Shown piece by piece: positions 1-4,828 of a DNA stretch of 64,000 nt; the stretch's first letter is position 1; each line of letters starts with the position of its first letter. The stretch is from Candidatus Phycosocius bacilliformis (GTDB taxonomy: Bacteria > Pseudomonadota > Alphaproteobacteria > Caulobacterales > Aquidulcibacteraceae). Below the pieces are notes generated by a model, which was not told the DNA's origin, made no database searches, and was given only the letters and a program-made list of their open reading frames with translations. A program made the translations under genes and the position numbers. Location of the stretch: NCBI RefSeq assembly GCF_003112735.1, contig NZ_BFBR01000007.1, positions 96,338 through 160,337 of the forward strand, written 5' to 3'.

Positions 1-807
1 AATTCCGGCTCAATGATTGCCTTGCAAACCTTGAACCGCACCAACGATCAGTTGGATAAGACCCAAAATACCATTGCAACGGGTCTGAAAGTGGCTTCGG
101 CTAAAGACAATGGTGCATTGTTTGCCATCGCCAACAAAATGCGCTCGGACGTAACTGCTTACGACCGCGTGCGTGAATCTGTCGACCGGGCTTCTTCCAT
201 CCTCGACACCGGCATTGCTGCAGGTGAAAGCATCATGGAATTGCTCAACGAAATGAAGGGTAAGGCCCTTGCTGCAACCCAGCCTGGCAACTCCGCCTCC
301 GCCCAATCTGCCCTGAACGCCGACTTCGTCCAACTGCGCGATCAGATCACCAGCGTCATCGCCAACGCCGTATTCGACGGCGCGAACATGATTTCAGGGA
401 CACCCAACAATGCTGTTGCCCTGGGTGATGCCAACGGGACCAACAATATCACGGTCACTGGCGTCAGTTTGGCTTTGGGCTCGACCACCATCACCGTGAC
501 CGCAGCTCAAGTCGTCGATACGACGGCTAACGCTGCAACGGCATTGACCAACGTCAACAACTCCATCACGGCACTTGGCACACAATTGGCGACTTGGGGT
601 GCTGGTGCCAAACGTTTTGAAGTTCACCGCAATTTTGTCGGTAAACTGCAAGATGCATTGAGCAACGGGATCGGGGCGATTGCTGACGCCGATCTGGCCA
701 AGGAAAGCGCCAAGCTGCAAGCTCTGCAGGTCAAGCAACAATTGGGCGTGCAAGCCCTGTCGATTGCCAATGGCTCGTCGCAGACGGCTCTGTCGCTGTT
801 CCGGTAA
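1..807 (+). CDS. Flagellin (partial, 5' end cut by window edge)
   Basis: Flagellin subunit, exported through the flagellar type III system and polymerised into the filament. The frame is open from base 1 (N-S-G-S before the first visible Met at 13). By comparison with the three complete copies downstream only six codons (MISVNT) lie outside the window. The N-terminal D0/D1 helix region (MIALQTL, then the GLKVASAKDNGALFAIA stretch) and the C-terminal D0 helix ending SQTALSLFR are conserved; the middle is short and variable, as in Caulobacter-type flagellins of about 270 residues. The first 266 bases are identical to 3356-3621 of the fourth copy, which suggests recent gene conversion. Family call is secure; which paralogue it corresponds to is unknown. 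Confidence 0.95.
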   Translation, partial: NSGSMIALQTLNRTNDQLDKTQNTIATGLKVASAKDNGALFAIANKMRSDVTAYDRVRESVDRASSILDTGIAAGESIMELLNEMKGKALAATQPGNSASAQSALNADFVQLRDQITSVIANAVFDGANMISGTPNNAVALGDANGTNNITVTGVSLALGSTTITVTAAQVVDTTANAATALTNVNNSITALGTQLATWGAGAKRFEVHRNFVGKLQDALSNGIGAIADADLAKESAKLQALQVKQQLGVQALSIANGSSQTALSLFR

Positions 808-962: not shown

Positions 963-1022
963 GAATTGCCTAAGGGTTATTCACGCCTCCTAAATTAGAC
1001 TGGCAACGGGTCCGAATGACCT

Positions 1023-1041
1023 TCGTGTCGAAACGGCATGA
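1023..1041 (+). promoter_or_regulatory. 5'-leader hairpin of flagellin 2
   Basis: An 8-bp stem with a 3-nt loop (TCGTGTCG, aaa, CGGCATGA, including two G-U pairs) ends 26 nt before the ATG. The fourth flagellin has a stem of the same length, loop size and distance with different bases (3293-3311). Four of eight pairs differ and all still pair, which argues for RNA structure. In Caulobacter, FlbT is known to act on the flagellin mRNA leader; that this hairpin is such a target is inference. Confidence 0.55.
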
Positions 1042-1067
1042 GATCAGTACTTGTCAGGAGATCAAGA

Positions 1068-1943
1068 ATGATTAGCGTCAATACCAATTCCGGTTCAATG
1101 ATTGCGCTGCAAACATTGAATCGTACCAACGACCAGTTGGACAAGACTCAGAACACGATTGCGACGGGTCTGAAAGTGGCTTCGGCCAAAGACAATGGTG
1201 CTTTGTTCGCCATTGCTACCAAAATGCGCTCAGATGTCACGGCCTATGACCGCGTGCGTGAATCGGTTGACCGCGCCGCCTCCATCCTCGACACCGCCGT
1301 TGCGGCCGGTGAAAGCATCATGGAATTGCTCAACGAAATGAAGGGCAAGGCTCTGGCCGCAACCCAACCAGGCAACTCTGCCTCCGCTCAGTCTGCCTTG
1401 AACGCCGACTTTGCCCAGTTGCGTGACCAAATCGTCAGCGTAGTGGAAAACGCGTCCTTTGACGGGGCCAACATGATCCGCAACTTCCAAGCCAATGGAA
1501 CCACAGCCGTAACAGTGAGTGATGCCATTGCTCTGGGTGATGCCAACGGAGGAAACAACATCACAGTGGCTGGTGCAGGTCTTCAGTTGCGGGCCACAAC
1601 GGCAGCCGTTACCGGTACCGAAATTATGCGCTTTGGACAGAACCAGGACATCTCGACTACGGCGAACGCCACCACGGCACTGGGCTTGATCAACACGTCC
1701 ATTGACAACCTCGGCACACGCCTCGCAACCTGGGGCGCAGGGGCAAAGCGCCTGGAAGTTCACCGCACCTTTGTCGGCAAGTTGCAGGACGCGTTGAGCA
1801 ACGGGATCGGGGCGATTGCTGACGCCGATCTGGCTAAGGAAAGCGCCAAGCTGCAAGCCCTGCAAGTCAAGCAACAATTGGGCGTGCAAGCTCTGTCGAT
1901 TGCCAATGGCTCGTCGCAAACAGCGTTGTCATTGTTCCGCTAA
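1068..1943 (+). CDS. Flagellin (second copy, with longer variable domain)
   Basis: Flagellin of 291 residues. The start is set at 1068, not the in-frame ATG at 1038: the sequence AGGAGATCAAGAATG is shared with the other copies, all of which start MISVNT. It differs from its neighbours by a longer central variable segment, with extra residues after the first conserved helix region (NFQANGTTAVTVSD) and a longer loop before the C-terminal helix. It also has many synonymous differences in the N-terminal part, so it is the most diverged of the four. The C-terminal D0 region is the same as in the others. It has its own upstream box, leader hairpin and terminator, so it is probably monocistronic. 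Confidence 0.95.
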   Translation: MISVNTNSGSMIALQTLNRTNDQLDKTQNTIATGLKVASAKDNGALFAIATKMRSDVTAYDRVRESVDRAASILDTAVAAGESIMELLNEMKGKALAATQPGNSASAQSALNADFAQLRDQIVSVVENASFDGANMIRNFQANGTTAVTVSDAIALGDANGGNNITVAGAGLQLRATTAAVTGTEIMRFGQNQDISTTANATTALGLINTSIDNLGTRLATWGAGAKRLEVHRTFVGKLQDALSNGIGAIADADLAKESAKLQALQVKQQLGVQALSIANGSSQTALSLFR

Positions 1944-1969
1944 ACTTAAGATATAACATCAAAAAATAA

Positions 1970-2001
1970 GGGCCTGAAGTCACCAACTTCGGGCCCTTTT
2001 T
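1970..2001 (+). terminator. Rho-independent terminator of flagellin 2
   Basis: The stem GGGCCTGAAG (1970-1979) pairs with CTTCGGGCCC (1987-1996), allowing one G-U type mismatch, and is followed by a T run. It lies 26 nt past the stop codon. Confidence 0.88.
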
Positions 2002-2049
2002 ATTTCAAATACTATGCCAATGACTGACATTTTCGAAAATTATTCATGT

Positions 2050-2077
2050 ATTACTTCGAGTTAGATAAAATTTTCTC
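2050..2077 (+). promoter_or_regulatory. Conserved upstream box, flagellin 3
   Basis: Second copy of the 28-bp box seen at 935-962 (26 of 28 identical). The AAAATT core ends 111 nt before the ATG at 2184. The surrounding bases are not conserved, so the match is unlikely to be only residual duplication. Confidence 0.55.
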
Positions 2078-2123
2078 TTTCTTTATCACTAATCCAATTG
2101 GTTTATTGGATAACTTTTTTGTG

Positions 2124-2167
2124 AGGTCGCCGTGATGCGCTTGCCCAAATGGCAAGCATGGCGACCT
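2124..2167 (+). promoter_or_regulatory. Large 5'-leader hairpin of flagellin 3
   Basis: The outer stem AGGTCGCC (2124-2131) pairs with GGCGACCT (2160-2167). Within it GCTTGCC (2139-2145) pairs with GGCAAGC (2151-2157) around a CAAAT loop, with an internal loop between the two stems. It ends 16 nt before the ATG, just upstream of the AAGGAG ribosome site (2171-2176), so it could affect translation or mRNA stability. It is bigger than, and unrelated in sequence to, the leaders of copies 2 and 4. Confidence 0.6.
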
Positions 2168-2183
2168 GCAAAGGAGATCAAGA

Positions 2184-3008
2184 ATGATCAGTGTCAATAC
2201 CAATTCCGGCTCAATGATTGCCTTGCAAACCTTGAACCGGACCAACGCCCAACTCGACAAGACCCAGAACACGATTGCGACGGGTCTGAAAGTGGCTTCG
2301 GCTAAAGACAATGGCGCATTATTTGCCATTGCCAATAAAATGCGCTCGGACGTAACTGCTTATGACCGCGTGCGTGAATCTGTCGACCGGGCTTCTTCCA
2401 TCCTCGACACCGGCATTGCTGCAGGTGAAAGCATCATGGAATTGCTCAACGAAATGAAGGGCAAGGCTTTGGCGGGTACCCAGCCTGGCCTGTCGACTTC
2501 GGCTGCCAGCGCGCTCAATGCCGACTTCACCCAATTGCGGGACCAAATCACCAATATTGTTGCTAATGCGGTGTTTGACGGGGCCAATATGATTAAGGCC
2601 ACGCCCGACAGCGCCATCGCCCTCGGTGATGCATCGGGTGGCAACAATATAACCATAACTGGGGCCAATTTATCCTTGGCAGGGACAGTTGTGACGGTGA
2701 CGGTGGCCCAAAGCGTGGACACCACAGCCAATGCAACCACGGCACTGACCAATGTGAACGCCTCGATTACCAATTTGGGCACACAATTGGCCACTTGGGG
2801 TGCCGGGGCCAAACGTTTTGAAGTTCACCGCAATTTCGTCGGTAAACTGCAAGATGCATTGAGCAACGGGATCGGGGCGATTGCTGACGCCGATCTGGCC
2901 AAGGAAAGCGCCAAGCTGCAAGCCCTGCAGGTCAAGCAACAATTGGGCGTGCAAGCTCTGTCGATTGCCAATGGTTCTTCGCAAACGGCTCTGTCGCTGT
3001 TCCGCTAA
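2184..3008 (+). CDS. Flagellin (third copy)
   Basis: Complete flagellin of 274 residues, the usual size for Caulobacter-type flagellins. The start at 2184 follows AAGGAG with the conserved MISVNTNSGS beginning. The N- and C-terminal coiled-coil regions match the other copies almost residue for residue. The middle (about residues 125-195, KATPDSAIALGDASGGNN and onward) is short and copy-specific and would form the reduced surface domain. Its own terminator follows. Confidence 0.96.
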   Translation: MISVNTNSGSMIALQTLNRTNAQLDKTQNTIATGLKVASAKDNGALFAIANKMRSDVTAYDRVRESVDRASSILDTGIAAGESIMELLNEMKGKALAGTQPGLSTSAASALNADFTQLRDQITNIVANAVFDGANMIKATPDSAIALGDASGGNNITITGANLSLAGTVVTVTVAQSVDTTANATTALTNVNASITNLGTQLATWGAGAKRFEVHRNFVGKLQDALSNGIGAIADADLAKESAKLQALQVKQQLGVQALSIANGSSQTALSLFR

Positions 3009-3034
3009 GACAAAATCGAAGACCAACTTGGAGC

Positions 3035-3068
3035 GGGCTTGGACATTCATGTCCAAGCCCTCCTTGTT
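3035..3068 (+). terminator. Probable terminator of flagellin 3
   Basis: A perfect stem GGGCTTGGAC (3035-3044) with GTCCAAGCCC (3051-3060), extendable by one A-T pair, is followed by TCCTTGTTT. The T tract is weaker than at the other copies. Confidence 0.75.
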
Positions 3069-3212
3069 TCGGCTTATATTCACGAACAGATCAGCTATAG
3101 CGGGTCAGTTCAACACGGGTGGATTTGACGAAAATAGAGTCGAATGCTCATCACCAACCCACGCATATTTGATTTGTTCTGTAAAAATTCCTGATTCTGG
3201 CTGCTAAATTCT

Positions 3213-3227
3213 CAGATCGATAAAATT
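3213..3227 (+). promoter_or_regulatory. Degenerate upstream box, flagellin 4
   Basis: CAGATCGATAAAATT matches the GAGTTAGATAAAATT core of the boxes at 943 and 2058 in 12 of 15 positions. It ends 110 nt before the ATG at 3338, the same spacing as in copies 2 and 3. It is the only recognisable conserved signal in the first half of the 329-base gap 3009-3337, apart from the terminator. Confidence 0.4.
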
Positions 3228-3292
3228 GCACCGATCTCCCACATCAATAATCCGTGATTGAGTCCTACCCTTCCGACAAGTCTGAATGACTT

Positions 3293-3311
3293 TCATGCCT
3301 GAAGGGCGTGA
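3293..3311 (+). promoter_or_regulatory. 5'-leader hairpin of flagellin 4
   Basis: The 8-bp stem TCATGCCT / GGGCGTGA with loop GAA (two G-U pairs) ends 26 nt before the ATG, exactly as in copy 2. The motif TCTGAATGAC just upstream (3281-3290) also matches TCCGAATGAC (1011-1020) in copy 2. Confidence 0.55.
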
Positions 3312-3337
3312 CATCTGTACTCGTGAGGAGATCAAGA

Positions 3338-4162
3338 ATGATCAGCGTCAATACTAATTCCGGCTCAATGATTGCCTTGCAAACCTTGAACCGCACCAAC
3401 GATCAGTTGGATAAGACCCAAAATACCATTGCAACGGGTCTGAAAGTGGCTTCGGCTAAAGACAATGGTGCATTGTTTGCCATCGCCAACAAAATGCGCT
3501 CGGACGTAACTGCTTACGACCGCGTGCGTGAATCTGTCGACCGGGCTTCTTCCATCCTCGACACCGGCATTGCTGCAGGTGAAAGCATCATGGAATTGCT
3601 CAACGAAATGAAGGGTAAGGCTTTGGCTGGTACCCAGCCTGGCAACTCGGCCTCTGCACAAGCTGCTCTGGCAGCTGACTTTGTCCAATTGCGCGATCAG
3701 ATCACCAGCGTCATCGCCAACGCCGTCTTTGATGGCGCGAACATGATCAAGGCAACTCCTGACAGCGCCATCGCCTTGGGCGACGCGTCCGGTAGCAACA
3801 ACATCACAGTTGCTGGTGCCAGCTTGGCGCTCGGCGGGACTGTCGTCACAGTGGCAGCGGGAGCTGTATTGACCGACACAACCACGTCGACGACAGCACT
3901 TGGTCAAGTCAACACCTCGATTACCAACTTGGGTACCCAATTGGCGACTTGGGGTGCTGGTGCCAAACGTTTTGAAGTTCACCGCAATTTCGTCGGTAAA
4001 CTGCAAGATGCATTGAGCAACGGGATCGGGGCGATTGCCGACGCCGATCTGGCCAAGGAAAGCGCCAAGCTGCAAGCTCTGCAGGTCAAGCAACAATTGG
4101 GCGTGCAAGCTCTGTCGATTGCCAATGGCTCGTCGCAAACGGCTCTGTCGCTGTTCCGCTAA
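3338..4162 (+). CDS. Flagellin (fourth copy)
   Basis: Complete flagellin of 274 residues. An earlier in-frame start at 3308 lies inside the leader hairpin, so the ATG at 3338 after GAGGAGATCAAGA is preferred. The N-terminal 266 bases from 3356 are identical to the first copy, synonymous sites included, and the last 210 bases differ by only a few. The central domain (about residues 135-195) is copy-specific. Conserved ends with a diverged centre is the expected result of gene conversion between tandem flagellins. Confidence 0.96.
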   Translation: MISVNTNSGSMIALQTLNRTNDQLDKTQNTIATGLKVASAKDNGALFAIANKMRSDVTAYDRVRESVDRASSILDTGIAAGESIMELLNEMKGKALAGTQPGNSASAQAALAADFVQLRDQITSVIANAVFDGANMIKATPDSAIALGDASGSNNITVAGASLALGGTVVTVAAGAVLTDTTTSTTALGQVNTSITNLGTQLATWGAGAKRFEVHRNFVGKLQDALSNGIGAIADADLAKESAKLQALQVKQQLGVQALSIANGSSQTALSLFR

Positions 4163-4183: not shown

Positions 4184-4217
4184 TCAGGCCCGACTCATTG
4201 TCGGGCCTGATTTTTTT
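4184..4217 (+). terminator. Rho-independent terminator of flagellin 4
   Basis: The stem TCAGGCCCGA (4184-4193) pairs perfectly with TCGGGCCTGA (4201-4210), followed by seven T residues. Confidence 0.93.
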
Positions 4218-4393: not shown

Positions 4394-4828
4394 ATGAACA
4401 TCGAGACCAAAAATATCTCGCTGGTACAGCCCGCACCCGTTGCTCCGATACGTCAGGGGCAGGAGGCTGTTATCCAACCAGCATCCAAAAGCATCAGGAA
4501 CCAGGCATCTGGTGATCGTCCGCCCGCACCTGATTACCGGCGTGGCAGTGGCAAAACGGATCAGCCAAGTGCTTTCGAGCCGGTGCAAAGCGAGCTCGAC
4601 ACCCAACAACGTCTGGCAATGGTCGAAAAGATCATTGGCAACAATACATCGCTTGTCATCGAAAAGAACAAGGGCTCCCAAGGCTTCATCTATAAGTCTG
4701 TCGACCGGGAGACCGGCGAAGTGACACGGATTTGGCCGCTGGAAGATCTGGCAAGTGAACTCACTATTCGTGCCGATGATGAGGAACGCGCTGCGATGCG
4801 CGGGGTCATGGTTGACGCCAAAGCCTGA
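4394..4828 (+). CDS. flaG: FlaG-family flagellar protein
   Basis: Protein of 144 residues. The N-terminal half is proline- and charge-rich and looks disordered. The C-terminal half has the FlaG pattern: a hydrophobic strand (FIYKSVDRETGEVTRIWP) followed by an E/L-rich helix (LEDLASELTIRADDEE). FlaG proteins are small, poorly understood cytoplasmic proteins usually found beside flagellin genes and linked to filament length or export. The position directly after four flagellins fits. The start is uncertain because the strong ribosome site serves an in-frame ATG at 4370 that is closed by TAG at 4385. Tryptophan in place of the more usual Gln/Ile in the RxIP motif is a small departure from the family. 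Confidence 0.75.
   Translation: MNIETKNISLVQPAPVAPIRQGQEAVIQPASKSIRNQASGDRPPAPDYRRGSGKTDQPSAFEPVQSELDTQQRLAMVEKIIGNNTSLVIEKNKGSQGFIYKSVDRETGEVTRIWPLEDLASELTIRADDEERAAMRGVMVDAKA

Follow-up and report, generated by a model that had tools for sequence, protein, structure and literature searches.

Tandem pentaloop hairpins in the flagellin mRNA leaders of Caulobacterales, a putative RNA operator of FlbT

The stretch of DNA analysed here (the window) comprises 64,000 nucleotides of contig NZ_BFBR01000007.1 of Candidatus Phycosocius bacilliformis and carries a cluster of flagellin genes, referred to below as copies 1 to 4. Most structural flagellin leaders were found to contain two adjacent hairpins, H1 and H2, located where the mRNA is predicted to begin and bearing pentaloops typically of the C[NRAAY]G type. 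Comparison of sequences suggests that these twin hairpins are probably an RNA operator through which FlbT acts, with FljJ, on structural flagellin mRNAs. The hairpins show covariation and, in the genomes searched, restriction to flagellin leaders. In the window's genus they bear the signature of coding-strand RNA, and they are positioned at the predicted transcription start (+1). The twin is absent from FljJ-type genes, and both flbT and flaF are present in the window's genome.

Leader hairpins of the window

The features of the flagellin cluster are listed below.

1..807, + strand: flagellin copy 1, 3′ part
996..1001, + strand: predicted −10 of copy 2, TAGACT (TANNNT 17 nt before the H1 loop)
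1008..1022, + strand: H1 of copy 2, 5-bp stem, pentaloop CGAAT at 1013-1017 (fold, RNAalifold, pair counts)
1023..1041, + strand: H2 of copy 2, 7-bp stem, pentaloop GAAAC at 1030-1034 (fold, RNAalifold, pair counts)
1056..1060, + strand: Shine-Dalgarno of copy 2, AGGAG (sequence)
1068..1943, + strand: flagellin copy 2 (PF00669 and PF00700)
2111..2116, + strand: possible −10 of copy 3, TAACTT (suggested by position alone)
2124..2167, + strand: leader hairpin of copy 3, long stem with an internal bulge (sequence, fold)
2139-2145/2151-2157, + strand: apical stem of the copy 3 hairpin, pentaloop CAAAT at 2146-2150
2172..2176, + strand: Shine-Dalgarno of copy 3, AGGAG (sequence)
2184..3008, + strand: flagellin copy 3 (Pfam search)
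3266..3271, + strand: predicted −10 of copy 4, TACCCT (TANNNT 17 nt before the H1 loop)
3278..3292, + strand: H1 of copy 4, 5-bp stem, pentaloop TGAAT at 3283-3287 (fold, RNAalifold, pair counts)
3293..3311, + strand: H2 of copy 4, 7-bp stem, pentaloop TGAAG at 3300-3304 (fold, RNAalifold, pair counts)
3326..3330, + strand: Shine-Dalgarno of copy 4, AGGAG (sequence)
3338..4162, + strand: flagellin copy 4 (Pfam search)

A first-pass annotation of the window had described, in copies 2 and 4, an 8-bp stem with a 3-nt loop, ending 26 nt upstream of the start codon (ATG at 1068 and 3338, respectively). These hairpins are read directly from the sequence (copy 2, stem 1023-1030/1034-1041 and loop 1031-1033; copy 4, stem 3293-3300/3304-3311 and loop 3301-3303), and the two stems do differ at pairs 3, 4, 6 and 8 with every pair still pairable. 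The 8-bp stem with a 3-nt loop is, however, not the conserved form. The eighth pair is formed in single-sequence folding of copies 2 and 4, but in relatives it falls inside the pentaloop, so the shared H2 has a stem of 7 bp and a loop of 5 nt. The two copies also provide weak evidence of covariation on their own, since from H1 to the ATG the two leaders share 46 of 60 positions; the changes are one-sided at three of the four differing pairs, and only the innermost pair is changed on both sides. The second hairpin, H1 (5 bp), had been missed; it abuts H2 in both copies with no spacer. When read together with the relatives, the H1 and H2 loops of copies 2 and 4 are C-G-closed pentaloops with A at positions 3 and 4.

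The larger hairpin of copy 3 (2124-2167), ending 16 nt before the ATG at 2184, was confirmed, although not as the unrelated structure it had been taken for: it ends in the same kind of pentaloop, CAAAT, on a longer stem. It matches the model R1 at 36.2 bits and is not among the matches at E ≤ 1 of the covariance model R2 in the search of 61 genomes described below. The predicted folding energies are −13.5 kcal/mol for H1 and H2 of copy 2 (z = −2.6; as low in 13 of 500 dinucleotide shuffles), −14.0 kcal/mol for those of copy 4 (z = −4.1; 0 of 500) and −28.4 kcal/mol for the copy 3 hairpin (z = −5.9; 0 of 500). The copy 1 leader, which also contains H1 and H2, lies just beyond the window edge (G000:C7:96031-96066, where G000 is the window's genome).

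Covariation of the stems

Conservation of structure under a changing leader sequence, proposed from copies 2 and 4, is well supported by pair counts and by a tree-based test. Pairing conservation in related leaders had been set beforehand as the test, and it is present both in the window's genus and in Caulobacteraceae. In alignment A2 (MAFFT, 16 leaders of the window's class), 94.8% of cells are paired and 6 of the 12 pairs have changed on both sides, giving 11 double-change cells versus 4.0 in shuffles. Sliding the partner by 1–3 columns lowered pairing to 19–48%, and RNAalifold, supplied with no structure, recovered both H1 and H2. The sequence GGAGATCAAGAATG at the Shine-Dalgarno is invariant in this alignment. 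With the structure named, 82.4% of cells are paired in the Caulobacteraceae alignment A4, with 75 double-change cells versus 28 after shuffling, although its FljL-type rows, which are misaligned, were retained. Alignment A5 (27 leaders, both families) contains 83 such cells versus 32, the outer H2 pairs being out of register for Caulobacteraceae. Alignment A1 was excluded from the counts, class B being shifted by one base relative to class A.

A further set of 127 leaders was anchored on the loop, with leaders of low loop signature and duplicate cores dropped. Its loop consensus is therefore biased, while alignments built without structure are unaffected. In this set, the second H2 pair of the window's genus is paired in 46 of 48 leaders versus 19.8 expected from independent columns, and all six pair types are used in the H2 stem. 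A home-made tree-based covariation test in the manner of R-scape was applied. For the combined set, structural pairs fill the six highest ranks among 561 column pairs; three reach significance when all pairs are considered, and 6 of 12 when the structure is given. The single families yield one significant pair each over all pairs and, given the structure, six in the window's genus and two in Caulobacteraceae.

The H2 stems of the window's genus contain 29 G-U combinations versus 3 A-C, and the distinct H1 and H2 stems together 29 versus 5. This excess is expected of coding-strand RNA in the window's genus and not of a DNA dyad.

Enrichment and loop signature

The leader set comprised 124 flagellin leaders from the window's genome and its relatives, seven flagellin starts being excluded (no usable ATG, or masked). 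The loop pattern for the enrichment counts was picked after inspecting the leaders. Hairpins with a C[NNAAN]G loop and a stem of at least 4 bp occur 105 times in 80 distinct leaders of flagellins with at least 60% identity to copy 3, versus on average 2.4 and at most 7 in 200 dinucleotide shuffles. At least two are found in 39 of the 80 leaders, versus 0.025 in shuffles. When the 90 nt before the start were searched for stems of at least 3 bp, the window's genus gave 115 hairpins in 66 leaders versus 4.6 in shuffled sequences, and the Caulobacteraceae leaders of the FljK-O type gave 214 in 118 leaders versus 12. Loop positions are concentrated around −55 and −38, with a smaller group at −20 to −16. 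In alignments built without structure, the loop A's are among the invariant or 90%-conserved columns.

The window's genome (3.3 Mb) has 15 flagellin matches, 13 of which are listed as places. The genus relatives G001-G008 have 9–14 each, and although some matches may be fragments, these numbers are many for one bacterium. Leader classes with the loops TGAAT, AAAAC, ACAAT and TCGTA coexist in one genome or genus.

Restriction to flagellin genes

The covariance model R2, built from the hairpin pair alone (36 positions, 27 leaders), was searched against 61 genomes of the order. It gave 68 matches at E ≤ 1 and 46 at E ≤ 0.05, and all 46 of the latter are located at flagellin leaders; no non-flagellin match was found at this threshold in the 61 genomes. 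The 46 were placed by distance to a flagellin ATG of 24–27 nt (37 matches), by tblastn (7) and by reading of contig ends (2). The matches are partly training sequences, while genomes such as G016, G027 and G030 are outside the training set. The weaker matches are mixed. Thirty-two of the 61 genomes lack a match at E ≤ 1, at most three of them being without a flagellin match. Together with the stricter filters applied in a search over more than 40 genomes, this makes R2 specific rather than sensitive. The model can be used for finding targets in other genomes.

In another genus, the element precedes a flagellin gene that follows flbT in the same orientation at a distance of about 0.6 kb (L239, L247 and L253 of G027, G030 and G016, respectively); the frames in two of these loci are 414 and 418 aa.

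Structural and FljJ-type flagellins

In a tree of 70 flagellins, seven Caulobacteraceae FljJ-type and nine divergent flagellins of the window's genus form a clade with a support of 0.887. The FljJ-type label refers to sequence divergence and tree position only. For the leaders in the tree, hairpins were counted upstream of −30 only and recounted both ways, and loops 14–22 nt apart were taken as a twin. None of the 16 leaders of the FljJ-type clade has a twin and 15 are without any hairpin in this region; among the other 54 flagellins, 33 have a twin and 50 at least one hairpin. Overall, the Caulobacteraceae FljJ-type genes have one hairpin in 37 leaders, which is below chance, and the 21 divergent leaders of the window's genus contain no hairpin with a 4-bp stem.

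FljJ has been described as a co-repressor needed by FlbT to silence structural flagellins until FljJ is exported (PMC7591256). The presence of the twin on the repressed genes and its absence from the co-repressor genes fit such a circuit. The presence or absence of twin hairpins offers a genome-level rule separating structural from co-repressor-type flagellins.

In seven FljJ-type leaders, those of the first divergent flagellin (L037, L043, L052, L054, L065, L071 and L077), a nested hairpin of the form GCGGA...ACCCTC...GAGGGT...TCCGC was observed, followed by one short pentaloop hairpin at −25.

Position in the transcript

A sigma54 −24/−12 pattern was found in 85 of 125 FljK-O type leaders of Caulobacteraceae (at least 56% identity to FljM) and in 0 of 40 FljJ-type leaders. 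In 74 of the 85, a loop was found in the searched stretch, 5 nt (31 leaders) or 6 nt (43 leaders) after the predicted +1, and in fljK-O type leaders of Caulobacter H1 begins at the predicted sigma54 +1. In the window's genus, 39 of 48 leaders have a TANNNT hexamer starting 21–16 nt before the H1 loop; it is located in the 4-nt interval from −20 to −17 in 27 of 48, versus 1, 2 and 8 in three control intervals of 4 nt. This placement puts the predicted +1 at the foot of H1. Two kinds of promoter thus appear, from the predicted starts, to give the same 5′ end. A transcription start downstream of the hairpins had been named as the result that would speak against an RNA element; the start is predicted at the foot of H1 instead. 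Sigma54 is encoded in the window's genome. The main text of a report on Caulobacter 5′ ends (PMC4117421) does not mention flagellin genes.

A box, GATAAAATT, is located about 120 nt before three flagellin ATGs (945-962, 2059-2078 and 3211-3228) and recurs in many leaders of the window's genus. Lying so far from the predicted +1, it cannot be the −10; it may represent an activator site or a further promoter.

Neighbouring features

Each flagellin gene is followed by a terminator-like hairpin (833-860, 1968-1998, 3035-3060 and 4184-4210), which suggests that each copy is transcribed as a separate unit. Five terminator-like sites were found where shuffled sequences gave 4.0 on average, so it is their placement and not their number that is of note. 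The gene after the cluster (4394-4828) is FlaG-like by position and has no Pfam match at E ≤ 0.01.

The link to FlbT

Anderson and Gober reportedly studied FlbT binding in 2000 on the fljK leader of a single species, Caulobacter crescentus, and the original FlbT work is said to have implicated a predicted loop. A search of the window's genome found flbT once, adjoining flaF (PF07309), and flbT is present in 58 of 61 relatives. The binding of FlbT to a flagellin 5′ UTR (untranslated region) has been reported (PMC4347634, PMC3930126), while PMC4347634 calls the mechanism of FlbT on flagellin mRNA unresolved and mentions a proposal of FlbT as an activator in Brucella. The first-pass annotation had offered the link of the hairpins to FlbT as conjecture. 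It has that standing still, and has gained support from the occurrence of the element in fljK-O leaders of Caulobacter and the absence of the twin from the FljJ type. Binding of FlbT to the Caulobacter fljK leader is already known, while the conserved architecture and distribution look new: none among the literature matches listed describes tandem pentaloop hairpins in flagellin leaders, subscription papers being mostly outside the search.

The FlbT protein was also compared with CsrA. The 45 N-terminal residues have a CsrA-like look, the model showing five short strands (mean pLDDT 79; 59 for the domain modelled alone). Pairwise scores between FlbT and CsrA are ordinary in five of six comparisons, the remaining one being better than 492 of 500 shuffles. 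Profile comparison gave a probability of 0.2–0.4%, and homology to CsrA is not claimed. No match to the whole model was found with Foldseek at E ≤ 0.001, the fold search returned helical-bundle look-alikes covering mainly the helical part, and no PDB relative was found by sequence.

Proposed operator and its alternatives

The operator would act in cis, at the extreme 5′ terminus of structural flagellin mRNAs. Its two adjacent hairpins would display the same kind of pentaloop, with the stems as a scaffold free to change while paired. FlbT would most likely read the loops, perhaps with a single dimer contacting both, and an FljJ-type flagellin would assist it as co-repressor; in the window's genus, this role may fall to the divergent flagellins. 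While the hook and basal body are unfinished, FlbT and FljJ on the leader would block translation and/or destabilise the mRNA. Once the export channel is complete, FljJ would leave through it with the help of FlaF, which would end the repression and allow structural flagellins to be made. FljJ-type genes, being without the twin, would escape. Some lineages may have a third, weak pentaloop hairpin on or beside the Shine-Dalgarno: CCT[NGAAN]AGG in Caulobacteraceae and CC[AGAAY]GG in Phenylobacterium were noted by eye, with double changes at two of three pairs but only 68% of cells paired. Sequestration of the Shine-Dalgarno was considered as a possibility only, its predicted accessibility being 0.41 in both the Caulobacteraceae core and the FljJ-type leaders. 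A precise, conserved candidate site with rules for loop, stem and spacing makes the question of the FlbT mechanism directly testable.

A wider reading, which as a whole we hold slightly less likely than not, is that Caulobacterales mark structural flagellin mRNAs by pentaloops read by a dimeric FlbT. The code would consist of two like pentaloops 15–21 nt apart, with a third beside the ribosome site in some lineages, while the transcript of an FljJ-type co-repressor would carry none or a single site. Such a code would have survived both the switch from sigma54 to a sigma70-type promoter and the expansion of the family to a dozen copies.

Several results weigh against these proposals. The main one is the distribution of FlbT, which stands against a simple one-to-one link: flbT is present in 50 of 144 class-level genomes, more widely than the element, and a class-wide tie of FlbT to the element was not found. 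Leaders of fetched loci from other orders contain 10 hairpins in 34 leaders versus 2.4 by chance, with clear twins in few of them (e.g., L215), the element being mostly confined to the order. Elsewhere, FlbT would thus read something else or act otherwise. The structural evidence is also uneven. RNAalifold found no structure in the noisier alignment A4, the whole-alignment tree test reached significance for a single pair in A4, which is structural, and for no pair in A2, and the distinct stems of Caulobacteraceae have no G-U excess (16 versus 16 A-C). Copy 3 is without a separate H1, 4 of 66 leaders of the window's genus and 10 of 118 of Caulobacteraceae lack a hairpin of the strict pattern, and deviant loops occur (TCGTA, ACAGT and, in Phenylobacterium, A-rich hexaloop-like forms). 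With 3-bp stems allowed, the 21 divergent leaders of the window's genus contain 11 hairpins versus 1.6 by chance; seven of these are a single short GCC[TGAAT or TAAAT]GGC at −25, in 7 of the 21 leaders, and the other four are found in two leaders whose flagellin falls outside the FljJ-type clade. In the predicted folds, the Shine-Dalgarno is not clearly sequestered.

The hairpins might instead be a protein-independent stabiliser guarding an abundant mRNA from 5′-end-dependent decay. Stems at the 5′ terminus stabilise mRNAs, and H1 does start at the predicted +1, but such a function needs stems and not a preferred loop size and identity in both hairpins, nor does it call for two hairpins at a near-fixed spacing. 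It also leaves the restriction unexplained, with no non-flagellin match at E ≤ 0.05 in 61 genomes and FljJ-type flagellins without the twin, and we regard it as unlikely. A target of another RNA-binding protein, for instance an ANTAR antiterminator, is a rather less likely account. Two small tandem hairpins with conserved loops do resemble the ANTAR dual-hairpin ligand (PMC3369931), yet ANTAR ligands carry A1 and G4 in hexaloops and lie upstream of a terminator, whereas the leaders have pentaloops with A3-A4 and the terminator-like sites lie after the genes. The ANTAR domain (PF03861) has no match in the window's genome at E ≤ 0.001, although control genomes are also without one, and it was matched in 5 of 13 genomes, only once above the family cut-off. 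CsrA (PF02599) likewise has no match in the window's genome; the controls E. coli, B. subtilis and T. maritima do match.

Inverted repeats around the +1, bound by a transcription factor as a DNA operator, would look alike when placed at a fixed distance from a promoter, and the G-U test in Caulobacteraceae does not separate the RNA from the DNA reading. In the window's genus it does (29 versus 3 on the coding strand). The arms are almost free in sequence while their symmetry is kept, the conserved loop is not symmetric, and one register is common to two different promoter types, which makes a DNA operator very improbable. Slightly less credible still, and in our view the least so, are functionless look-alikes left by shared ancestry of duplicated leaders. 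The flagellin genes are paralogous, so their leaders cannot count as independent cases, and counting of the motif began only after it had been noticed; nevertheless, the covariation of the combined set holds against the tree-based null and spans two families with different loops and promoters, and neutral drift would have broken the stems.

Comparison with known systems

The flg-Rhizobiales motif precedes basal-body operons. The putative FlbT operator resembles it in being a candidate cis RNA near alphaproteobacterial flagellar genes (RF01736; PMC2864571) and differs from it in that the Rfam 15 families gave no match at gathering score in the window and ten related loci. With the ANTAR ligand it shares two small tandem hairpins with conserved loop positions, and it is set apart by the A3-A4 pentaloops and by the leader, in which no terminator was found. 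A further likeness is to the fljK 5′ UTR of Caulobacter crescentus, also a flagellin leader in a genome with flbT and flaF, and twin pentaloop hairpins are common to the leaders of C. vibrioides (L100, L106 and L156) and those of the window. In one family of the order (f3), flagellins and leaders match Caulobacter and Brevundimonas records, which suggests Caulobacterales as the order of the window's genome. Unlike Caulobacter fljK, the window's genus has a sigma70-like promoter pattern in place of sigma54, other loops (TGAAT) and many paralogous targets per genome, and the element is defined by comparison.

In the CsrA-FliW-flagellin circuit of Bacillus and Campylobacter, a flagellin mRNA leader similarly serves as a translational operator. 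The CsrA operator differs in its GGA, which is absent among the commonest loops listed here (AAAAC, AAAAT, TGAAT, TCGTA, etc.), one GGAAT loop being seen in another genus, and FlbT has no homology to CsrA detectable by profile comparison. An analogy between FlaF-FlbT and the CsrA-FliW-flagellin system has already been suggested (PMC4894983). If the loop code is true, FlbT-FljJ-FlaF would be an independently evolved counterpart of CsrA-flagellin-FliW.

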